Source of the DNA: Mogibacterium sp.
GTDB lineage: Bacteria; Bacillota; Clostridia; Peptostreptococcales; Anaerovoracaceae
Direction of reading: 5' to 3'
Assembly (NCBI GenBank): GCA_017403955.1
Contig: JAFRDH010000010.1
Coordinates: forward strand, 1 to 64,000
Length of the DNA stretch: 64,000 nt
The position numbers and the translations under genes are program-made. Numbering within the stretch: position 1 is the stretch's first letter; the number at the start of each line of letters is the position of its first letter. Positions 12,775 through 23,313 of the stretch are shown here, piece by piece. Under the pieces are notes generated by a model. It was not told where the DNA came from and ran no database searches. It saw only the letters and a program-made list of their open reading frames with translations.

Positions 12775-13992
12775 TCAGAAGCTGATTTCATCAACGTATT
12801 TACTGATGTTTTCTTTTGTGTAGAGAAGGATCTTGTCCCCTTCCCTGAGAACCACATTCCCGTTAGGGACGATCATTTTATTATCTCGCTCGATCAGAAC
12901 TAAGTATGACTGCCTGGAGATATCAAGTTCAGAAATCTTCATACCATTCCATTTGTGATTTTTCTTGAGCTCGATCTCTTTCAGATCACTCAGGTACTCA
13001 TCCTGTACAGCTTCAGCACAGATAATGAGGCGATCGTTCGCGAGGATTTCAACATCTCCTCTCGGAATTACAGTGTCATTTTCTCTGATGATCGTAGCAA
13101 TGAGAGCTCCGTGCGGGATCCCGAGATTTTTTATCTTCTTGCCAACCCACCTGTCATTTTCTTTCACAAGTACCTCAATAAAGTGTACCGAACGTTCTTT
13201 CTCGATATCTGTCAGCTTCTTTACTTTCTGGTACTCTTCAACGAATCCCGCGGAAATAATACCTGTAGGAATGGCAACAAGACCGACACCGAGGAAAGCA
13301 ATTATTATGCCTATTACCTGACCGGCAAAAGTTACCGGATAGATATCACCATATCCGACGGTCAGCAGTGTTGAAGTAGCCCACCAAACACCTGAAAAAG
13401 CATTCGCGAATACATCAGGCTGCGCCTCATGCTCGACACTGTACATACAGAGGCTGGATGCCAGTATCAGGAGCACGATAATAAATACGGATGCCATTAT
13501 CTGAGTTTTTTTGGCGGACAATACGCTTCCGATTATGCTGAGAGAGTCATAATAGGCATTGATCCTGAAGAGTCTGAATATTCTGATGACTCTGAACATC
13601 CTGAACACAACTGCACCTGCCGGAAAGAATATCGGCAGATAATAAGGCAGGAACGACAGCAGGTCAATTATGCCATATCCGGAAAAAATATATTTTGCCG
13701 CGGCCTTAGCCCTTGAACATCCCGGGAAAAGCCTGTCCGAGGTAATGAGTCTCAGAGCATAGTCTATCGCAAAGAACAGTACTGTTAATGCCTCCAGCCA
13801 CGACAGTAACGTGTGATGAGCAGCATAAAAAGGCTCAAATGTCATCGCTACGCTGACTATTATGTTAATAATCAGCAATAGCGTACTGACAATATCGTAG
13901 CCCTGGTTCAGTCTGTCGTTGACAACTCCGACAGAGACCATATCAAACAGGCGGTCTTTGAAATGTGTGTAGTGGCGTAATTGCTTTTCCAT
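12775..13992 (-). CDS. Six-TM voltage-gated-type K+ channel with RCK-C domains, 405 aa
   Basis: Six membrane segments: S1 at about 34-52, S2 62-82, S3 107-124, an S4-like arginine segment at 131-143 (RMFRVIRIFRLFR), S5 165-185 and S6 222-246. The selectivity filter TVGYGD is at 211-216. The cytoplasmic C-terminus carries two TrkA-C-like modules (about 265-340 and 345-405). Such channels pass K+ and are gated by a ligand or voltage. It follows nhaC with a 23-bp gap and shares its terminator, so it may balance charge for the Na+/H+ antiporter. The ribosome binding site is weak. Confidence 0.88.
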   Translation of the reverse strand: MEKQLRHYTHFKDRLFDMVSVGVVNDRLNQGYDIVSTLLLIINIIVSVAMTFEPFYAAHHTLLSWLEALTVLFFAIDYALRLITSDRLFPGCSRAKAAAKYIFSGYGIIDLLSFLPYYLPIFFPAGAVVFRMFRVIRIFRLFRINAYYDSLSIIGSVLSAKKTQIMASVFIIVLLILASSLCMYSVEHEAQPDVFANAFSGVWWATSTLLTVGYGDIYPVTFAGQVIGIIIAFLGVGLVAIPTGIISAGFVEEYQKVKKLTDIEKERSVHFIEVLVKENDRWVGKKIKNLGIPHGALIATIIRENDTVIPRGDVEILANDRLIICAEAVQDEYLSDLKEIELKKNHKWNGMKISELDISRQSYLVLIERDNKMIVPNGNVVLREGDKILLYTKENISKYVDEISF

Positions 13993-14015: not shown

Positions 14016-15521
14016 TTAGTTCATAACGATTCCTGCAATGAGGAAGCATATTGCCGAGCATATAGCTCCCATAAGTCCATAAGGCAGCTGCGTCGTTGCA
14101 TGATCGAAGTTATTGCATCCGCACGCTGAAGATGTGATTACAGTAGCATCTGAGTAGAAGCAGATGTGTGATCCGAATACGCCGGCACTGAGAACAGCTG
14201 CAACAGCTACGGTCACATCAGCACCGGTTGAAACTGCCAGTGGAATAACAATAGGAAGAGCTATGATGTACATTCCCCAGTTGGTACCTGTAATAAACTC
14301 CGTTATCGACAAAGCGATGAATACTGCAAGCGGCAGGAATTTTGGTGAAACCAAAGCCGTTGCTGTCTCGATTACATACAGTGTGAAGTGGATCTGTTTG
14401 CTTACATTGGCAAAGAGGAACGCAAGAACCATCAGGATCAGTGGAAGGATCATGTTCTTGAGACCTTCCAGTGCAATATCGATGAACTCTTCTGCGTCAA
14501 TGATCCCCTGAGCAAGATACAGAACAAACATGACAGCGAGTGTGATAATTACGCCTGCCTGCATATCGATCTTGACTGTCGCAGCGATAAGGACCGCGAT
14601 CGGAATGACCATGTTCCAGATACTTGGATGCTCCGGTATCTCCATCTGTGTTCCCGCGTGGATATCGATTTTCTCACTTCCCGGAGGAGCGAGCGGACCA
14701 CCTTCTTCAACACGCTTGAATGCCTTTTTCATAGGTCCGACGATCGGAATGATGCCAAGCACTACAAGCGGAACGATAAGTGCTGCGAACCATCCGTAGA
14801 AATTGAACGGAATCGTCTTTATGAAGTATTTGAGTCCCTCACCTGCAGGAGCCCACTCATTTGCTTCGAGGATCCTGCTGCAGAATACAGACCATGTCGA
14901 AATAGGAATAATAACACACAGAGGTGCAGCTGTAGAGTCAACGACATATGCAAGGAACTCTCTTGGCACTTTGTGTCTGTCTGTTATTGGTGTCATGCAA
15001 GCACCGACTGTAAGGGAGTTAAGATAGTCATCAATGAAGATGAGGATACCCAGTATCCATGTCCATATAAGCGAAGAATTCCGCGTTTTAGCCCTTTTTG
15101 ATACCCATTCACCAAAAGCATAAGCACCGCCTGAACGCTCGATGAGAGAGATAATACTGCCCATGAGACCGCATACTATGATCAGCCATGCGATATCCTC
15201 ATCCATCATTGTCGCAAGCAGTGAGTCACTGAAATTCGAGAAAGTATTGCTTATCCATGTTCCTTCTCCGACAGTGACCGGACGTGAAACCATGATGACT
15301 CCCATCAGAGAAGCAAGAACCAGCGACTCGATGATTCTCTGTGTCATGAAAATATAGACAATAAGAAAGATCGCAGGTACGGTTGAGAAAAATCCAAAAT
15401 TCTCTACTTCCGGCGGAAGGAAATAAGTACCGATGAATGTTGCAGCCAGTATACATATTATTGCAATAAGAGTACGCTTACTGCTGTATGTATTCCTGGT
15501 GTCCTTGAATGGATTAAACAT
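14016..15521 (-). CDS. NhaC-family Na+/H+ (or organic acid) antiporter, 501 aa
   Basis: A polytopic membrane protein with about 11-12 hydrophobic segments and the family signatures LIFIDDYLNSLTVGACM and FITGTNWGMYIIALPI. Members exchange Na+ for H+, or malate for lactate coupled to ions, and the substrate cannot be told from sequence. Its start has a strong AAGGGGG ribosome binding site. It sits between the D-aspartate-ligase-like gene (26 bp) and the K+ channel (23 bp), and so shares a transcript with the MurT/GatD-like genes, an unusual association. Confidence 0.85.
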   Translation of the reverse strand: MFNPFKDTRNTYSSKRTLIAIICILAATFIGTYFLPPEVENFGFFSTVPAIFLIVYIFMTQRIIESLVLASLMGVIMVSRPVTVGEGTWISNTFSNFSDSLLATMMDEDIAWLIIVCGLMGSIISLIERSGGAYAFGEWVSKRAKTRNSSLIWTWILGILIFIDDYLNSLTVGACMTPITDRHKVPREFLAYVVDSTAAPLCVIIPISTWSVFCSRILEANEWAPAGEGLKYFIKTIPFNFYGWFAALIVPLVVLGIIPIVGPMKKAFKRVEEGGPLAPPGSEKIDIHAGTQMEIPEHPSIWNMVIPIAVLIAATVKIDMQAGVIITLAVMFVLYLAQGIIDAEEFIDIALEGLKNMILPLILMVLAFLFANVSKQIHFTLYVIETATALVSPKFLPLAVFIALSITEFITGTNWGMYIIALPIVIPLAVSTGADVTVAVAAVLSAGVFGSHICFYSDATVITSSACGCNNFDHATTQLPYGLMGAICSAICFLIAGIVMN

Positions 15522-15547: not shown

Positions 15548-16762
15548 CTAAAGATAAGTCAGGAAACGTTTTTTCTGTCTGTGCATGAAGATCCTGACAT
15601 ATACATGATGTAACAAATTCCGGTCCGATCTGTAGTCTATCGGATTGCTGACACGATGCGCCTTATATTGAGCATCAACTTCAGCTCTGAGTTTTTCATC
15701 CTGCACGTATGCATTTATGATCGACTGAGGGATCTTGGAATACAGATGCGGTCTGTCTGTGACGATGCATCCGTCAAAGCTCTCTCCGTCGACCCATTCT
15801 TTGACGTACCACTCGGCAGTATTATATCCTGCGCCTGTAACATAGTAGCTGCTGCTGCCGAGACGTGTATTGATCTCGAAGAACTTATATACCCCATCTC
15901 TCGGGTCATATTTGATATCGAAATTGGCAAACCCTGTATATCCGATGGATTCCAGAAGTCTTACTGCACTTTCTTGTACGTTCTTATCCGGTAATTCAGT
16001 CAGGATCGCCACAGGATTACCGATCGAATTCTCTTCATGGTCTTCCATCATTGTGTGGCCTCCTGATACGAGGCGTACCTTGCTGTTCTTATCACAGTAG
16101 CAAGTGAGCAGATGCATCCCGGTATCATCACCCGGTACGAACTCCTGGATAAGGAACTTGTCACCATAGTCAGACTTTCCTACTCTTTCAAGAAGCTCGA
16201 TCAGTTCCTCTCTGGATCCGATCTTGTAGACCTTCTTCTGACCTTCGAAAGATGTATTGTAATATGCCGCGCTGTTAGACGGCTTGGCTATAACAGGATA
16301 CATCATGTCAGGGACCTGAACATCAGTGTTGCTGAAATCATAGACAAAAGTCTTAGGATATGCAACCCCGTATTTATCGCAAAGCTCGTAAAAATGCTCT
16401 TTGAGCACCAGCCGGTCGAGCAGTTCACGGTCTATATACGGAACTATGAACCCCATCTCCTTGAGACTCTTTTTGTTCTCTATCACCATTCTGACCTGCC
16501 AGTCACGGCAGCCAAGAACTATTTTGTGTTCCTCAGGGTTATTGTCCGCTACTTCTTTCATTGTCCTGAGAAAAACAGCCGGATCCGTCAGTTCAGGTTC
16601 AGCGATTGTCCTGAGTATACTTGTACGCGTATTCAGGACATTCGCAGCTGTCGTAACAGCAATTGAGGTAACTCCGTATGCCTCATGAAATGTTCTTGCC
16701 TGACTGTATGCTGCAAAGTCTCCGCCTACCAGTACAGGCAGAAGATCTTTTCGTTTATTCAT
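15548..16762 (-). CDS. ATP-grasp amino acid ligase, D-aspartate ligase (Asl)-like, 404 aa
   Basis: The sequence resembles D-aspartate ligase of Enterococcus faecium along its length: an N-terminal LPVLVGGDFAAYSQARTFHEAYG, a central YPKTFVYD and FPVIAKP-like nucleotide-binding strand (YPVIAKPSNSAAYYN), IQEFVPGDDTGMHLL, TGFANFDIKYDPRDGVYKFF and the metal-binding FEINTRLGSSSYYV. The E. faecium enzyme activates D-Asp and joins it to the lysine side chain of the peptidoglycan precursor as a cross-bridge. Substrate identity here is inferred. It starts 2 bp after the first GatD-like gene, so the three genes 18977-15548 form a tight unit acting in the cytoplasm. Confidence 0.75.
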   Translation of the reverse strand: MNKRKDLLPVLVGGDFAAYSQARTFHEAYGVTSIAVTTAANVLNTRTSILRTIAEPELTDPAVFLRTMKEVADNNPEEHKIVLGCRDWQVRMVIENKKSLKEMGFIVPYIDRELLDRLVLKEHFYELCDKYGVAYPKTFVYDFSNTDVQVPDMMYPVIAKPSNSAAYYNTSFEGQKKVYKIGSREELIELLERVGKSDYGDKFLIQEFVPGDDTGMHLLTCYCDKNSKVRLVSGGHTMMEDHEENSIGNPVAILTELPDKNVQESAVRLLESIGYTGFANFDIKYDPRDGVYKFFEINTRLGSSSYYVTGAGYNTAEWYVKEWVDGESFDGCIVTDRPHLYSKIPQSIINAYVQDEKLRAEVDAQYKAHRVSNPIDYRSDRNLLHHVYVRIFMHRQKKRFLTYL

Positions 16763-16764
16763 CT

Positions 16765-17610
16765 TTAATTCCTCTTATCGTTTATGAATTGTCTTGCCTC
16801 TTCAGCTGACTTGAGTTCCTGCTCGATCTCTTCGTCAGGCAGATCAAAACTGCCGGATAAAGTAGTTACACCTGCAGTCTTCGCTGCGCATTCAAGAAGA
16901 TGCGCCGCAAGCCATGGATTTCTGACAAGAACCGGACCGACACAGCCGGTATAAATAACGTTGCCGCTTCTTGCGCCCTCGTTTCCGCTGCCGTCATTCC
17001 CGCGTCCGTATATCACCTTTCCGAAAGGCTTCTGTCCATCTTGAAGTGTTACATCAAGAAGCTGTATCTGATTGCCTGTGACCTCTATTCCGTCTTCTGT
17101 CATTATCCACAGATCATCTCCGTGGACTTTTTCTCTTTCGGTCATAGTCATATGGAGAAGTCCGAGTCCGGATACTGAAGAACCATCAGTCCTGATAAAT
17201 TCATCTGCAAGGAGCGCTCCGCTGCTGCTGACTGCTGCGATCATTTTACCGTTCCCGGCAAATGTACGGAACTCCTCATCCCTGGTTTTAAGAGATCTAA
17301 GTATATCTTCCATACAAGTCAGATCCCCACTGGCAAAATAAATAATATCCGCCCAGTCAAAAGGTATTTCATCTGACAGTGAGTCAAGTCTTCTCATCTC
17401 TGCAGGAAGCCCCATGCTGCAGCTTACTCTCATAAGTGCCATAAGATCACCCCTGCCCCCGAACACGTTAAGTACGTCCGGATACATCCAGAGAATATGA
17501 AGAGCTCTCGTAGTTTCCGGAAGTCCGAGTGATTTCACATTGCTGAGGACAGCATCATGCCCGGATGTGTTGTTCCTTATTTCATTGAATATTTTATATT
17601 TTAAAGACAT
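16765..17610 (-). CDS. GatD-like class I amidotransferase homologue, catalytic residues lost, 281 aa
   Basis: A homologue of GatD, the glutaminase subunit that supplies ammonia to MurT for lipid II amidation. Shared landmarks are RALHILWMYPDVLNVFGGRGD, the strand before the nucleophile elbow, GRGNDGSGNEG, and GPVLVRNPWLA. The expected elbow Cys is Ser128 (AVSSSGALL in place of I-C-G-G-Y-Q), and the His expected in Y-x-H-G-P is Val224. The loss of both residues means ordinary glutamine hydrolysis is very unlikely. The gene lies 17 bp after its MurT-like partner. An N-terminal extension of about 35 residues before the family start is present. It may be a structural partner or bind another amine donor. 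Confidence 0.8.
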   Translation of the reverse strand: MSLKYKIFNEIRNNTSGHDAVLSNVKSLGLPETTRALHILWMYPDVLNVFGGRGDLMALMRVSCSMGLPAEMRRLDSLSDEIPFDWADIIYFASGDLTCMEDILRSLKTRDEEFRTFAGNGKMIAAVSSSGALLADEFIRTDGSSVSGLGLLHMTMTEREKVHGDDLWIMTEDGIEVTGNQIQLLDVTLQDGQKPFGKVIYGRGNDGSGNEGARSGNVIYTGCVGPVLVRNPWLAAHLLECAAKTAGVTTLSGSFDLPDEEIEQELKSAEEARQFINDKRN

Positions 17611-17627
17611 ATTGTTACTCTTCTCTA

Positions 17628-18977
17628 TTAGTTCTGTTTCTTAGGTTTTTTGTAATATGGGATCTCTTCTACAAGATAGACCGGTTTGTCGTCAAGCGGC
17701 TCGAGTGCTCCCGCAACGTCTTCTTCATAGCTCGCAGGAATTACCGTCATGTGATCCGGATCGAATCCGTCATACATCATCCTTACCGCCGCTGCACGTC
17801 CGATAGCTTTTGACATGCAGACAAAATGATTTAGTCCTGATCTTAATACAGGACGGAAATCGACGTCAAACAGTGCGAGAGTGTTGGTGAATGCAGGGTA
17901 ATAGTCCAGAGTTTCATCCAGCCCGAACAGGAATATCTTATCTTCCTTATCCTCAGCGACAAGGTTGAGCGATGACTGGATGGTTTCAGGATTCTCCTGC
18001 TTCATCTTGATATAATTGAGAGTCTTGCCTGCGATACTCTTAGTAGCAAGTCTTCCCCTGAGATCTGAGAACGTCTCGAATCCGTGTGCGATCTGATCTT
18101 CAGAAAGGCCCATTTCCTTAGCTGCCGCAAGAACGGAAATATAACAGTAAAGGAAATATGGTGTACTGAAATTGAACTGATACTTGCGGCCGGATGAAGT
18201 GAATGTGTGACCCTCGTAGTCTACCTCATCTACCAGATAGTCAGCTTTGCGTTCTCCGCCGTATCCGCACGAAGGACATACAAACGGTCCGATGTTTTCG
18301 ATATTGTGAGCATGGAAAACGATCGGCTCGTGACATCTTGCGCAAGGCATGGTCACAGAGAAGAAATCCGATTCCTTGTGATATGACTTGGAATTCTCTT
18401 TGACCGCATAGCTGACTGCGCGTCCGGCACTTTCGCCGAGTGCGAATGATCTTGGCTCATCCTGGTTGACAAAAGCAGTGAGATCCGGTCCGAGAGCTTC
18501 GGTTATCTTGCGTGAGATGACACCAGGCTCACCATTTCTCTGCGTCTGATCCTTCTGTATATTAGTGATAATAAGCTGATGTGCAGGAAGCTGTTTCCTG
18601 ATGAATTTAAGATATCTTTCATCAGTTTCCATGACCACATATTCAGAACGGATCCTGCCTGACAGACCGGAATCTTTGATAAGGGCTGTAGCTACTCCTG
18701 TAAGCATGTTAGCTCCATCAAGATTAGCGCAGACTTTCTTCCCACTGCTTGTGAAAACATGATGCAGAAGATTGACAGTCGTGCTCTTGCCGTTTGTTCC
18801 GGTAACAAAAACAGCCTTGTCAGGATCTATCCCTTTCATATGCTGTACGAAAAGAGGATCGATTCGCAGGGCTACTTGTCCGGGCAGATTAGTACCTCTG
18901 CCCTTTGCGATGATATTGATCACTATTACTGATAATTTAGATACCCATAATGCAATAAAAAATCTGATGCTGCTCAT
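17628..18977 (-). CDS. MurT-like Mur ligase with Zn ribbon, divergent subfamily (copy 1), 449 aa
   Basis: The N-terminal Mur ligase ATP-binding loop VTGTNGKSTT is at 58-67, a four-Cys Zn ribbon is at Cys212/215/234/237, and the C-terminal DUF1727-like domain is at about 310-440. Canonical MurT has a D-x-S-W segment before its Asp-rich strand, and that Asp completes the GatD triad. Here the position is Asn365 (NTLALFDVDF). KDQTQRNGEP and KQENPETIQ replace the usual R-D-Q-x-D-R-x-G and K-N-P-x-G segments, marking a separate subfamily shared with copy 2. It has its own promoter (19010-19038) and sits 17 bp upstream of the GatD-like gene. It probably activates a carboxylate with ATP; substrate and amine donor are unknown. 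Confidence 0.8.
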   Translation of the reverse strand: MSSIRFFIALWVSKLSVIVINIIAKGRGTNLPGQVALRIDPLFVQHMKGIDPDKAVFVTGTNGKSTTVNLLHHVFTSSGKKVCANLDGANMLTGVATALIKDSGLSGRIRSEYVVMETDERYLKFIRKQLPAHQLIITNIQKDQTQRNGEPGVISRKITEALGPDLTAFVNQDEPRSFALGESAGRAVSYAVKENSKSYHKESDFFSVTMPCARCHEPIVFHAHNIENIGPFVCPSCGYGGERKADYLVDEVDYEGHTFTSSGRKYQFNFSTPYFLYCYISVLAAAKEMGLSEDQIAHGFETFSDLRGRLATKSIAGKTLNYIKMKQENPETIQSSLNLVAEDKEDKIFLFGLDETLDYYPAFTNTLALFDVDFRPVLRSGLNHFVCMSKAIGRAAAVRMMYDGFDPDHMTVIPASYEEDVAGALEPLDDKPVYLVEEIPYYKKPKKQN

Positions 18978-19009
18978 CTATATATATTGTTCCTTTCATT
19001 ATTAATCAC

Positions 19010-19038
19010 ATTATACAGTATTATTGTCTCAGTGATAA
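19010..19038 (-). promoter_or_regulatory. Promoter of the murT1-gatD1-ligase unit
   Basis: Minus strand: -35 TTATCA (19033-19038), 17-bp spacer, -10 TATAAT (19010-19015), about 33 bp before the ATG at 18977, with AAGGAA as ribosome binding site between. It shows the second pair and the ligase can be expressed apart from the first pair. Confidence 0.65.
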
Positions 19039-19079
19039 GACATAGTTATATAATATGACCAACAATATTAATTATTTTG

Positions 19080-19877
19080 TCAGGAGTTCATTTTAGATTC
19101 TATGAACTGTTTCTTGAGCTTCATCGACTTTCGCTCAAGAGTGAATTCCGGATCCCTTTTGCTGATCTCAAGGCCCTTCACCTCAGCAGCTGTCCGTATT
19201 ATGCGGACAGTGAGCCATGGATTATTGACAAGTACCGGACCGAGCATATTAGTGAAGATAGAATTCACATGAACAGCCCCTTCTATTCCATCACTCCCGT
19301 TATTTCCTCTTCCATATATAACCGAACCGAATCTCTTAAACTGATCATTCTCTGTGAAACCATAATCCGCCATCTGTATCTGGCTGCCGATAAGTTCCAT
19401 TGAATAACCGCCGTACTCAGCTCTTATATCGAGATCATTACCGTATACGAGTTCTCTCTCATATGCCTCCGTATTAATTATGCAAAGACCGTCGATCACA
19501 TCGTTTTTATCGTTTTCCGGTGCCCAGCGGACGATTTTCTCGCCGAACAACGCTACGGTTGTTCCAACAGCAATAAGAATTCTCCCTGAGGAAATATATT
19601 CTGCAAGACTGTGTTTGTATCCTGAAATATCATCAATAACAGATCTGAAAGAAGATATTTCGCCAGGCCCGTAGAAAAGAATATCATAATCAAATGGATC
19701 GAAATCCTCTGTTCCGAGGTCTATCCTTCTGACATGCGGTGTCAGGCCCAGTTCCATCGTATAACGGACAAGAGCCATGATGTTGCCTCGTTCCCCATGC
19801 AGATACAAAGTATCCGGGTACATCCATGCTATATTGATTCTGTCGTCTGTCATCTCGGTTACTTCTCCCTGCTTCAC
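19080..19877 (-). CDS. GatD-like homologue, catalytic residues lost (copy 2), 265 aa
   Basis: A GatD-family protein with INIAWMYPDTLYLHGERGN at the N-terminus, GRGNNGSDGIEG and GPVLVNNPWLT. The nucleophile position reads AVGTTVALFG, so the Cys is Gly105, and the Y-x-H-G-P His is Leu212 (NMLGPVL). The pseudo-enzyme state is therefore shared with copy 1 but through different replacements. A GTG start at 19877 overlaps the stop of its MurT partner (GTGA); ATG 19853, preceded by GGGAG, is the alternative. A basic C-terminal helix ends the protein. It probably works only as a heterodimer with the MurT-like protein encoded just upstream. Confidence 0.8.
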   Translation of the reverse strand: MKQGEVTEMTDDRINIAWMYPDTLYLHGERGNIMALVRYTMELGLTPHVRRIDLGTEDFDPFDYDILFYGPGEISSFRSVIDDISGYKHSLAEYISSGRILIAVGTTVALFGEKIVRWAPENDKNDVIDGLCIINTEAYERELVYGNDLDIRAEYGGYSMELIGSQIQMADYGFTENDQFKRFGSVIYGRGNNGSDGIEGAVHVNSIFTNMLGPVLVNNPWLTVRIIRTAAEVKGLEISKRDPEFTLERKSMKLKKQFIESKMNS

Positions 19878-21244
19878 GATCTTGCCTTACCGGCATATTC
19901 TTTCATCTGCTCAAACAGATACATTTTGACTGTGAGATAAATATTGCTGCATTCACACTTTGAAATGATCTCGAAGATTTCTTTTACATCACTTGTTGGA
20001 ACGACCTCAATACGCGAGGAGTCAAATCCGCCGTAGATAAAGCAGTTCGCAGCGTCATATGCAATAGTGTCAGTCACAAAGATGATCTTACTGACATTTG
20101 CATCAGCTAATACCGAGTAGTCACAGTCAAAAGCGTAGAATGAATTGATATAGTGCGGATCATAGTCACTTACAGTTCCGAACCCCATGATCAGGACTTT
20201 TTCGTTCTTGTCAGCAGCTGCTGAGTTCAGGAAGTTCTGCAGTGTATCAGGATTCTCCTGTTTGAATCTGAAGTACTTAACAGTCTTACCCGCATACTCA
20301 ATACTCTCGATACGGCCTTCAGGTATAGTGAATGTTTCAAGAGCTTTTGATGTCTCTTCTTCACTGATACCGGCCAGTTCTCTGCATACTGCTGTCGCTG
20401 CAGCGTAATTATACAGCATATAAGGCTCAGCATAAGGCATCGAAAAAGCAGTGCCGTTGATATTGAATGTTCCTTTGTCAAAATCAGCGTCACGCACTGT
20501 ATATCCGGCATTTTCCATGCCGTTATTATTGGTATAGCCGCATCCTGAGCATTTGAAAGACCCCATGCCGTCATTGTTATAATAATCGAATACGATACGG
20601 GATCTGCATTTCGGGCATGGCAGGGTAACAAATGTGTCATCCTTGATAAAAGCACGCCCGTGTCTGTCCGCTGAGTAATAAATCACACTTTCTGCACGAT
20701 CTGCGAGTGAGCACGATCTCGGTTCGTCACCGTTCAGAAAAAGTCTCATTTTATACTCATCTGCTACTGCTGCTATTTTTCTATATACAAAATCAGGGTC
20801 GCCATTTCTCTGGACCTGATCTTTTTCAAGGTTAGTTATCAGAAGATTCCCGCAAGGGACCTGGTCGCGTATCTGATGCAGATAACGTTCATCTGTCTCA
20901 AAGATGCAGTAATCAGCATTTATTTTTCCTGATATATCCGCACCTTTGACCAGAGCCGCTGCGATTCCTGATGTAAGGTTTGCTCCTCCGGTATTGGAGA
21001 TCACACTGAATCCCTTAGAAGTCAGGATATGAACGATCATATTGGTAACAGTGGATTTCCCGTTAGTCCCCGTAACAAAAAGAACTCTGGAAGGATCGAT
21101 CCCTTTCAGACCGCATAGGAAATCAGGGTCGATGTTCATCGCCTTCTTTCCTGCCCAGATGGTTCCTCTGTTCTTATCTATGATGCTTATAATAAACGCG
21201 CCGAGTTTACCCGTAATAAGCGCTCGTGTAAATTTGAAACTCAT
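19874..21244 (-). CDS. MurT-like Mur ligase with Zn ribbon, divergent subfamily (copy 2), 456 aa
   Basis: The ATP loop is VTGTNGKSTV (57-66), the Zn ribbon is Cys210/213/232/235, and the C-terminal domain is DUF1727-like. As in copy 1, the segments KDQVQRNGDP and KQENPDTLQ are present and the triad Asp is replaced by Asn367 (NSFYAFDCDY). The two MurT copies resemble each other more than canonical MurT in these marker segments, suggesting duplication within this subfamily. There is no good ribosome binding site before ATG 21244, which lies just after the rpsA terminator, so translation or promoter may be weak or condition-dependent. Confidence 0.78.
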   Translation of the reverse strand: MSFKFTRALITGKLGAFIISIIDKNRGTIWAGKKAMNIDPDFLCGLKGIDPSRVLFVTGTNGKSTVTNMIVHILTSKGFSVISNTGGANLTSGIAAALVKGADISGKINADYCIFETDERYLHQIRDQVPCGNLLITNLEKDQVQRNGDPDFVYRKIAAVADEYKMRLFLNGDEPRSCSLADRAESVIYYSADRHGRAFIKDDTFVTLPCPKCRSRIVFDYYNNDGMGSFKCSGCGYTNNNGMENAGYTVRDADFDKGTFNINGTAFSMPYAEPYMLYNYAAATAVCRELAGISEEETSKALETFTIPEGRIESIEYAGKTVKYFRFKQENPDTLQNFLNSAAADKNEKVLIMGFGTVSDYDPHYINSFYAFDCDYSVLADANVSKIIFVTDTIAYDAANCFIYGGFDSSRIEVVPTSDVKEIFEIISKCECSNIYLTVKMYLFEQMKEYAGKARS

Positions 21245-21312: not shown

Positions 21313-23313
21313 TTATTCTTCTTCCTTAGCGTCTTCAGCAACTACTTCTTCAGCGGCCTCTTCTGCAGGAGCTTCAGCTGCCTCTTCAGGGAGAGCTGCC
21401 TTGATGCTCAGGCTGATTCTTCTCTTGTCAGGGTCGATCTCCATGATCTTGACCTTAACAGTCTCGCCGACCTTAAGCTCGTCACTGACGTTATCAACTC
21501 TCTTGTTAGCGATCTCGGAAATGTGTACAAGTCCGTCAAGTCCTGCTTCGAGCTCAACGAATGCACCGTATTCCTTAGTCTGTACTACCTTGCCGTCAAG
21601 TACATCACCGATCTGATACTTCTCGCCTACGAGAGTCCATGGCTCAGGCTGAGTCTGCTTGAGTCCGAGTGAAATCTTGCCCTTTTCTTCATTGAGTGAA
21701 AGAATCTTAACATTGATGATGTCGCCGATCTTAAGAACTTCCTCTGGGTGTTTAAGCTTGCCCCATGAAATCTCGGAGATGTGAAGGAGTCCGTCAACTC
21801 CGCCGATATCAACGAATGCACCATAGTCAGTGAATCTCATAACCTTACCTTCGACTACGTCGCCGACATTCAGGTTGCTCCAGATCTCTGCTACAGCTTT
21901 GCGCTTCTCCTCAACTAGTACAACTTTGCGTGAGAATACTGCTCTGTTACGCTTAGTATCGACTCTGATAACTCTAACATCTACATTCTGTCCGAGGAAC
22001 TCATCTGCGTTCTCAACATATCTGTCGGAAAGCTGTGACATCGGGATGAATCCTGTGATCTCCTTGTAAGCTGCGATAACACCGCCGTTTACTGCTCTTA
22101 CAAGTTTAACATTGATTACATCCTTGTTCTCCATTGCTTCCTCGAGCTCTGTATAGTTCTCAACTGCAACGAGTCTCTTCTTGGAAAGAAGGATTCCGCC
22201 TTCTCCCTCATCAGACTTGATAACCTTAGCCTGAATATCATCGCCTTCCTTGAAAAGATCTGACAGCTTCTGTCCTTCTTCGAGAACAACTTCATCAGCT
22301 CTCAGGATTCCGTCCTTCTTGCAGCCCATGTTGACGATTACCTGATCGTCCATAACCTGCTCAACTTTACCCTCGATGATGTCTCCCGGCTTTGGCAAAC
22401 GTAAAGATTTCTCAATGTCATCCATAAAATCCATCATTGGATTCTGTTCCATATTCTTAGTGACATTTTCGCTCATACTAGAAATAACCTCCTTGATAAT
22501 CCACTCGGGCGTCGATGCGCCCGCTATAATGCCTATTGTATTATATTTTGAAATGTCATTCAACAAAAAATTGGACGCATTTTCAATAAAATAGCTTATT
22601 TGGTTATTATTTTGGGCAATTTCAAACAATTTCCTTGAATTCGAACTATGTTTGTCGCCCACAACCACCATAGCATCCACTTTTGCAGCAAGCTCCCTGC
22701 AGCTCTCCTGCCTGTCTCTTGTCGCATTGCAGATCGTATTGCGGATATCATAGATTATTCCCGCTCTGTCAAAAACATCCAATATTTCCTGCAGAAGCTC
22801 AGCCTTAATGGTAGTCTGGCATACTATTACAGGCTTGATGCCCTCAAGCTCAGGAACTCTCTCGAGTGCCTCTTCAGGGCTGCCTATTACAAACGCCTTA
22901 TAACCGCACCATCCGTTAGTCGCCTTGACTTCCTGATGATTACGGTCACCTATAAGGACTACCGGCTGACCGGAAGCGTGAGCAGCAGAAACTATATCAT
23001 GTATTTTCTTGACAAAGACACAAGTTGTATCCACAAGATGAATACCTTTTGCTTCTGCTTCTTCGTAAAACTCTCTGGGTTCTCCATGAGATCTAACGAT
23101 GACTGTATCCCCCGGCTCGGCTTCAGCAAGTGATTCTATAAGAATTACACCTTTTGATTCAAGTCTTTCTACGACCGCTGCGTTATGAATGAGATGTCCG
23201 CAGGTAAGAAGCCTGCCATCTCTATCTTTTTTATCTGCTTCGGTGAAGGCAAGATTGATTGCTCTGTCAACACCGAAGCAGAATCCGGAATGCTTAGCTC
23301 TTATAATTTCCAT
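21313..23313 (-). CDS. ispH-rpsA: IspH fused to ribosomal protein S1-like domains, 666 aa
   Basis: Residues 1-280 are 4-hydroxy-3-methylbut-2-enyl diphosphate reductase (IspH), last step of the MEP isoprenoid route, with the three Fe-S cysteines in HSGFCFGVDRAI, VDTTCVFVKKI and ICNATRDRQES and substrate-binding SNSRKLFEIA. Four S1 RNA-binding domains follow (about 300-368, 385-455, 470-540, 557-628) and an acidic Ala/Glu tail. The same fusion is known across Clostridia, where the S1 part may act in translation. It follows eno with a 3-bp gap. Confidence 0.93.
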   Translation of the reverse strand: MEIIRAKHSGFCFGVDRAINLAFTEADKKDRDGRLLTCGHLIHNAAVVERLESKGVILIESLAEAEPGDTVIVRSHGEPREFYEEAEAKGIHLVDTTCVFVKKIHDIVSAAHASGQPVVLIGDRNHQEVKATNGWCGYKAFVIGSPEEALERVPELEGIKPVIVCQTTIKAELLQEILDVFDRAGIIYDIRNTICNATRDRQESCRELAAKVDAMVVVGDKHSSNSRKLFEIAQNNNQISYFIENASNFLLNDISKYNTIGIIAGASTPEWIIKEVISSMSENVTKNMEQNPMMDFMDDIEKSLRLPKPGDIIEGKVEQVMDDQVIVNMGCKKDGILRADEVVLEEGQKLSDLFKEGDDIQAKVIKSDEGEGGILLSKKRLVAVENYTELEEAMENKDVINVKLVRAVNGGVIAAYKEITGFIPMSQLSDRYVENADEFLGQNVDVRVIRVDTKRNRAVFSRKVVLVEEKRKAVAEIWSNLNVGDVVEGKVMRFTDYGAFVDIGGVDGLLHISEISWGKLKHPEEVLKIGDIINVKILSLNEEKGKISLGLKQTQPEPWTLVGEKYQIGDVLDGKVVQTKEYGAFVELEAGLDGLVHISEIANKRVDNVSDELKVGETVKVKIMEIDPDKRRISLSIKAALPEEAAEAPAEEAAEEVVAEDAKEEE

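Follow-up and report, generated by a model that had tools for sequence, protein, structure and literature searches.

Introduction

The gene pairs considered here are relatives of murT and gatD, which encode the lipid II isoglutaminyl synthase that uses glutamine to amidate the α-carboxyl group of D-glutamate (D-Glu) in the peptidoglycan precursor and that has been solved for Staphylococcus aureus (6gs2, 7q8e) and Streptococcus pneumoniae (6fqb). In S. aureus, neither MurT nor GatD is active alone (PMC3266927). The glutaminase relies on a Cys and a His of GatD, and the identity of the third triad residue is disputed: the S. aureus model assigns it to Asp349 of MurT (PMC6113224), the S. pneumoniae model to Asp32 of GatD (PMC6085368). 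We have analyzed a 64,000-nucleotide stretch of a Mogibacterium sp. contig (JAFRDH010000010.1; hereafter the window), in which two MurT/GatD-like pairs, murT1/gatD1 and murT2/gatD2, lie in tandem. Like the described synthases, each is a two-gene unit composed of a protein with the middle and C-terminal Mur-ligase domains, zinc-ribbon cysteines, P-loop and acceptor residues, and of a class I amidotransferase-type partner. Unlike them, both pairs lack the GatD Cys and His and the MurT Asp, and their donor-side loops are changed and carry a two-residue insertion. We consider it somewhat probable that these pairs and their closest relatives are glutamine-independent ligases joining a diamino acid, likely D-ornithine with D-lysine as the next candidate, to the D-Glu α-carboxyl group.

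Results

Loss of the Glutaminase Residues

Residue counterparts were taken from alignments of the window proteins with the solved S. aureus and S. pneumoniae proteins and with relatives. The catalytic Cys of GatD (Cys94 in S. aureus) is replaced by Ser128 in GatD1 and Gly105 in GatD2, the His (His189) by Val224 and Leu212, respectively, and the counterpart of MurT Asp349 is Asn365 in MurT1 and Asn367 in MurT2. All six replacements had been reported in a first-pass annotation of the window and are borne out by these alignments. Its wider claim that the whole triad has been lost holds for the Cys, the His, and the MurT Asp but hinges on the disputed third residue: at the position of S. pneumoniae GatD Asp32, GatD1 has Gly52, and GatD2 has Glu29, which is still acidic.

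Both window pairs fall into a subgroup that we call KQENP, after the loop following the MurT Lys. The Cys is absent from all 76 KQENP GatD rows, the two from the window included (Gly in 73, Ala in two, Ser in one), and none has the His; these 76 rows were left after removal of one unrelated CobB-like match (L109). The MurT Asp is changed in 76 of 78 KQENP rows (Asn in 73, Val in three, Asp kept in two). Retention of the Cys and His at shifted positions was considered and rejected on the sequence alignment, since no column holds a Cys in more than 43% of the 76 GatD rows and the sole common His column (93% of the rows; His27 in GatD2, Phe50 in GatD1) lies at another site, that of the channel-plug Tyr30 of S. 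pneumoniae. In the S. aureus enzyme, GatD C94S and C94G abolish glutamine-dependent activity in vitro (PMC6113224, PMC3266927), and with MurT D349N the in vitro activity is severely reduced or gone (PMC6113224). Because these same single changes destroy or cripple the S. aureus enzyme, it is natural to conclude, as the first-pass annotation had done, that the KQENP pairs have lost the use of glutamine.

Retained and Altered Parts of the Ligase

The counterparts of S. pneumoniae MurT Lys59, Asn85, Glu110, Asp112, Glu113, Asn132, and Arg304, which bind ATP, Mg, or the acceptor (PMC6085368), are identical in all 22 aligned KQENP rows, to which both window copies belong. The four zinc cysteines and the P-loop Lys, already noticed as intact in the first reading, are likewise present in both copies and invariant in the 22 rows. 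Judged from these alignments, the ligase half of MurT is intact and the glutaminase half is dead. Although triad loss in both copies would fit with decaying, inactive genes, we regard decay as almost certainly wrong, given the invariant ligase residues, intact open reading frames (ORFs) in records of Clostridia, Actinomycetota, and Bacilli, and ratios of non-synonymous to synonymous substitution rates of 0.024–0.070 in the five computable pairs of 19 tried, none of which contains a window gene.

The donor side is altered. Two MurT loops at the GatD side differ: the canonical RDQxDRYGE reads KDQxQRNGxP in the KQENP proteins, and the canonical K-NPxG has become a Lys followed by two extra residues and NPxT; comparison with the canonical forms agrees with the earlier remark that KDQxQRNGxP and KQENPxTxQ are atypical of MurT. 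In GatD, the FENHxGRT stretch is mostly GxQIQ. This stretch and the His at the Tyr30-plug position are candidates for parts of an altered donor path. Fold and acceptor chemistry would be familiar and the donor side new.

These loops bear on the idea that D-Glu is still amidated, by free ammonia in an ammonia-rich gut or rumen, with GatD as a mere scaffold. A precedent exists in S. aureus, where MurT paired with GatD C94G goes on amidating lipid II at pH 8.5 when ammonia is the donor, in a reaction for which GatD remains necessary (PMC3266927); the f49 pairs described below also suit this reading well. However, the KQENP MurT proteins are altered at loops near the donor and GatD, which ammonia use would not need. 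The linkage to racemase and arginase genes (see below) also speaks against it, and in Eubacterium amidation would block the type B cross-link site. For the KQENP pairs we consider ammonia-driven amidation unlikely.

Triad Loss Defines a Clade With Several Subgroups

MurT_C domains (Pfam) were found in 21 of 60 genomes in a sample of relatives and in 153 of 293 genomes in a class sample, from which 24 and 40 places, respectively, were taken for alignment and tree building. In the 67-row MurT tree, a single branch (support 100/97) parts 53 triad-lost rows from 14 canonical-type rows, and neither Cys nor His occurs in any of the 52 GatD rows from outside the canonical-type group, so that triad loss marks a clade, a point that had been raised for the window pairs from the outset. 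The GatD partners of the 14 canonical-type MurT proteins have Cys and His in 11 instances, Ser and His in one (L088; L numbers denote loci, G numbers genomes), and neither residue in two (L087, L092). The last two, members of family f49, combine a canonical-looking MurT with a GatD devoid of Cys and His, stand apart from the KQENP clade, and may represent an ammonia-only amidase.

The triad-lost side comprises the subgroups KQENP, KHENS, KDKNALA, KNENSTT, and KSQN/KGQN. In all of them the loop is two residues longer than the canonical K-NP, and in most rows RN replaces the canonical RY or RF in the loop lining the GatD side. The MurT Asp is sometimes retained in the other subgroups (e.g., L036, L056, L060, L063, L068, L069); the constant feature is the loss of the GatD Cys and His. 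KQENP itself (22 rows, support 100/100) contains both window copies.

Among Actinomycetota, 119 of 218 genomes contain MurT_C, and 20 loci chosen toward low scores include seven triad-lost (L195–L201) and 11 canonical ones; L202 lacks both Cys and His and has another look, and L203 lacks the Cys only. In two of these loci (L196:2909-5134 and L201:2823-5048) a triad-lost MurT and its GatD are fused in a single ORF of 741 amino acids with Pfam Mur_ligase_M, MurT_C, and GATase_3 matches (GATase_3 slightly below cut-off in L201), and a 759-amino-acid ORF in L197:2864-5143 is, from its length, a putative MurT-GatD fusion. Genes resembling carbamate kinase by eye lie close to triad-lost KGENSTATS pairs in L195, L198, L199, and L200; the arginine deiminase pathway is another source of ornithine.

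Distribution of the KQENP Pairs

A scan of named records matched 533 stretches and gave 314 relatives, the best 80 of which are referred to as the 80 named loci. KQENP pairs occur among them in Acetobacterium, Eubacterium callanderi, E. barkeri, E. aggregans, Emergencia, Hornefia, Aminicella, Mogibacterium, Anaerofustis, and many metagenome-assembled genomes; outside Clostridia, they were found in one Collinsella (L157, Actinomycetota) and in one record titled Bacilli (L158). Scores in the 293-genome sample set KQENP sharply apart: 11 genomes reach at least 534 bits, and the next score is 282. Of 17 named genomes searched in full, 14 contain no MurT_C match besides the KQENP one; second matches in the other three are of canonical-like score (G354, 115.9 bits), of another triad-lost type (G351, L194), or weak (G352, 24.8 bits). 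The source genome of the window also has just two MurT_C matches, both in the window. We searched it for a third, canonical murT-gatD pair, a check proposed in the first-pass annotation, and found none by Pfam MurT_C, although an assembly gap could hide one because the assembly consists of 25 contigs and is 95.1% complete.

These data speak to the possibility that the acceptor is a molecule other than peptidoglycan and the product a different one. Ligases of the Mur type act in many pathways, there are weak NCBIfam matches to pseudomurein, cyanophycin, and F430 ligases, and one genome carries two non-identical pairs. Yet the counterparts of the acceptor-side Asn85 and the Mg-binding Asp112 and Glu113 are retained in 22 of 22 rows, and the pair takes the place of canonical MurT/GatD in the 14 named genomes; a non-peptidoglycan acceptor is in our view very improbable.

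In a 92-row tree, murT2 lies in a 46-row branch together with Acetobacterium and E. callanderi/barkeri (support 100/98), and murT1 in a separate 14-row branch; L042, L159–L172, and G339 contain relatives of murT1. A recent tandem duplication in the window is rejected, since the copies, 38% identical, sit in two old sub-branches, and the two copies need not share a substrate. The two tandem pairs reported initially are thus both present, but as members of a widespread group with several subgroups.

Linkage and Co-occurrence With Ornithine Racemase

Among the 80 named loci, of which 66 extend more than 2 kb past murT, 12 have an ornithine racemase (Orr)-like gene, as identified by NCBIfam, immediately behind gatD. 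G105 shares this order; the linked loci include a Collinsella and the record titled Bacilli. In six of the 12, an arginase-like gene comes next. Arginase yields ornithine, which the racemase would convert to D-ornithine. Four linked racemases score 345–458 bits on the NCBIfam model racem_Orr (NF040742, cut-off 480), the same family as Orr, and at most 27 bits on alanine racemase; the G105 copy scores 411 bits, and two linked arginase-like proteins reach 206–210 bits on rocF (cut-off 227.6).

Co-occurrence extends beyond linkage. In the 293-genome class sample, an Orr-like gene (E ≤ 1e-60) is present in 10 of 11 KQENP genomes and in 37 of the 282 others (Fisher 4.6e-8, a value that treats genomes as independent, while the 11 KQENP genomes come from 5 families). 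The KQENP genome without Orr is G339, which was counted as such since its KQENP gene, which we had considered as possibly broken, is an intact ORF of 444 amino acids. As controls from the same sample, four of 20 genomes with other triad-lost MurT proteins (all four from the family of the window organism) and none of 13 canonical-type genomes (G339 included) have such a gene. All 28 chosen KQENP genomes contain an Orr-like gene at 325 bits or more. When, post hoc, the sub-cut-off Orr-like copies alone are counted, they occur in 10 of 11 KQENP genomes and 15 of 282 others. In the source genome, the Orr-like gene lies at G000:C12:101113-102180 (347.6 bits, below the cut-off of 480).

Several observations weigh against the proposal that these racemases supply the KQENP pairs. 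Orr is not exclusive to KQENP genomes: in 32 of the 37 other sample genomes with it the score exceeds the curated cut-off, and among the 33 sample genomes with such a copy G325 is the sole KQENP representative, that is, one of 10 KQENP genomes with Orr (four of the 28 chosen ones). Because the KQENP racemases mostly score below cut-off, they are best called Orr-like, and their substrate may be lysine or some other amino acid. An Orr-like gene is also found in G142, G236, G118, G174, G261, and G319, whose high MurT_C scores are presumably canonical, and two genes away from the canonical pair in L030. Elsewhere Orr probably serves ornithine fermentation, so that its presence alone is a weak indication. 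The linkage is old and nearly of single origin: the 13 linked rows require three changes on the 92-row tree, where a single clade of 15 rows (98/98) contains them all. This clade is distinct from the murT2 branch and joins the 14-row branch of murT1 weakly (82/86). In the window genome and in Acetobacterium/Eubacterium, the racemase is unlinked. Moreover, all six sampled genomes of the window's family possess Orr, with or without KQENP, which makes the co-occurrence uninformative there. Finally, G339 combines a copy-1-type KQENP pair with a canonical pair and has no Orr.

The 37 non-KQENP genomes with Orr and the copy-1-type pair of G339 without it can also be read in favor of another amine, i.e., glycine, an L-amino acid, or a diamine (for example, cadaverine or putrescine), Orr being present for another purpose, e.g., ornithine fermentation. 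Diamines on D-Glu do occur in some bacteria. In Cyanophora, putrescine is added to D-Glu at the lipid stage (PMC3266927). Against such amines stand the arginase and racemase genes right behind gatD, which point to a D-diamino acid, and the type B2 walls of the Eubacterium lineage, which carry D-ornithine or D-lysine. We judge another amine to be distinctly unlikely.

A Proposed Role in Type B Cell Walls

Type B walls are cross-linked from the α-carboxyl group of D-Glu, as has been known since the classification by Schleifer and Kandler, and such a wall is shared by Acetobacterium woodii, Eubacterium limosum, and Clostridium barkeri. Collinsella, by contrast, has a type A wall, which does not favor our proposal. 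Cross-links between positions 2 and 4 have been described, with Eubacterium listed under type B 2-alpha beside type A variants (PMC11382707), and for the type strain of E. limosum a wall content of 12.1% ornithine, 9.0% lysine, and 3.4% serine is reported (PMC4791908). KQENP pairs are present in Acetobacterium, E. callanderi, and E. barkeri, whose lineage has type B walls; for Eubacterium, the assignment is that of the genus-level table (PMC11382707). As the canonical enzyme amidates the very carboxyl group that type B species load with an amino acid, replacement of the one enzyme by the other in these species is an economical reading. A named enzyme for this loading step was not found in the open-access literature, and the available parts of the MurT/GatD distribution literature (PMC6085368, PMC6113224, PMC11915815, PMC12786226) make no mention of triad-less pairs, nor did literature searches yield a paper about them.

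In the mechanism that we envisage, MurT would bind the lipid-linked precursor in the manner of canonical MurT and activate the D-Glu α-carboxyl group with ATP. The attacking amine would be a free diamino acid in place of ammonia made by GatD, most likely D-ornithine, D-lysine next, and an ornithine-racemase-like enzyme would supply it. The D-Glu α-carboxyl group would then carry a D-diamino acid as the branch for type B (B2) cross-links. GatD would split no glutamine; it may hold MurT in its active form and shape the entry of the amino acid. Precedents for both aspects come from S. aureus: the C94G experiment, together with the inactivity of MurT alone, shows that GatD can serve as a functional partner even when catalytically dead, in keeping with the non-catalytic role suggested in the first-pass annotation, and S. 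aureus MurT replaced MurE in vitro, making UDP-MurNAc-Ala-Glu-Lys (PMC3266927), so that MurT can accept a diamino acid. The KQENP pair would resemble MurE, which joins L-Lys or meso-diaminopimelic acid to the γ-carboxyl group of D-Glu, in attaching a diamino acid to a D-Glu carboxyl group with ATP. It would differ in using the other carboxyl group and a presumably lipid-linked substrate, in lacking the UDP-binding N-terminal domain, and in having a GatD partner. The genomic context suggests a specific candidate donor, D-ornithine or D-lysine, where the first-pass annotation had spoken of a ligand other than glutamine-derived ammonia.

Organization of the Window Locus and Features of Copy 1

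The five genes packed into positions 15548–21244 are given in Table 1. This range, noted initially for the two pairs, does hold both of them, but its low end is a further gene, for an ATP-grasp protein. The gatD2 and murT2 genes overlap by 4 bases, and the ATP-grasp gene starts 2 bases past gatD1. All four MurT/GatD-like proteins are grouped with MurT/GatD by NCBIfam, yet far under the curated equivalog cut-offs: 119–145 bits for MurT (cut-off 800) and 48–82 bits for GatD (cut-off 400–450). For GatD2, there was no Pfam match at 0.001, and its score on the NCBIfam GatD model is 74.8 bits (cut-off 400).

Table 1. Genes of the tandem MurT/GatD-like locus in the window.
Gene	Position	Strand	Length (aa)	Description
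murT2	19874..21244	-	456	MurT-like ligase, KQENP subgroup; Pfam Mur_ligase_M and MurT_C
gatD2	19080..19877	-	265	GatD partner, predicted glutaminase-dead; Gly105, Leu212
murT1	17628..18977	-	449	MurT-like ligase, KQENP subgroup; Pfam Mur_ligase_M and MurT_C
gatD1	16765..17610	-	281	GatD partner, predicted glutaminase-dead; Pfam GATase_3; Ser128, Val224, Gly52
ATP-grasp gene	15548..16762	-	404	ATP-grasp protein; weak D-Ala-D-Ala ligase/CPSase-like matches

Copy 2 is likely the housekeeping ligase of the window organism. Copy 1, with the ATP-grasp protein as its neighbor, is a divergent sister pair and probably uses a different amine or makes the branch longer. The KQENP MurT of G339 is 53% identical to MurT1 and 40% to MurT2, and since this genome has a copy-1-type pair and no Orr, copy 1 may have another donor. 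In G339 the copy-1-type pair (L227:7166-9373) shares the genome with a canonical pair; both systems can coexist.

The order murT1-gatD1-ATP-grasp is kept in four genomes of the genus (the window, L049, L052, and L053), with ATP-grasp copies that are 82–83% identical; no relative of this gene was matched in L042, L227, or L159–L172, several of which end soon after gatD. The protein is possibly a second amino-acid ligase that extends the branch. The ATP-grasp D-aspartate ligase of enterococcal and lactococcal cross-bridges is a possible analogue, although the window protein shows no more than weak D-Ala-D-Ala ligase/CPSase-like similarity. A different ATP-grasp gene (Pfam ATPgrasp_ST) accompanies other triad-lost subgroups (L038:3338-4342, L039:8577-9578, L040:8856-9860, and L041:4960-5979).

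Directly upstream of murT2, positions 21313–23313 encode a 666-amino-acid protein that by eye resembles an IspH-S1 (LytB-RpsA) fusion. On the other side, a transporter-like gene (14016–15521) and a potassium-channel-like gene (12775–13992), likewise named by eye, come after the ATP-grasp gene in the same orientation and are also kept in L049, L052, and L053.

Discussion

The clade as a whole invites a wider, tentative reading, which we give somewhat less than an even chance: a single loss of the glutaminase might have given rise to a family of amino-acid ligases with several donor specificities, the missing D-Glu α-carboxyl ligases. KQENP would then serve D-ornithine or D-lysine, and KHENS, KDKNALA, KGENSTATS, and others would serve other amines, with ligases that are sometimes fused and sometimes paired with branch-lengthening ATP-grasp ligases.

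If the proposal for the KQENP pairs is true, it would show how an amidotransferase turned into an amino-acid ligase by losing glutaminase function but retaining the dead subunit, and many genes annotated by similarity as lipid II isoglutaminyl synthase would make no isoglutamine. Wall type would become predictable from genomes, and a testable gene pair for the type B step would be at hand in the culturable genera Eubacterium and Acetobacterium. The pairs would thereby put a name to the missing step of a rare bacterial wall type.

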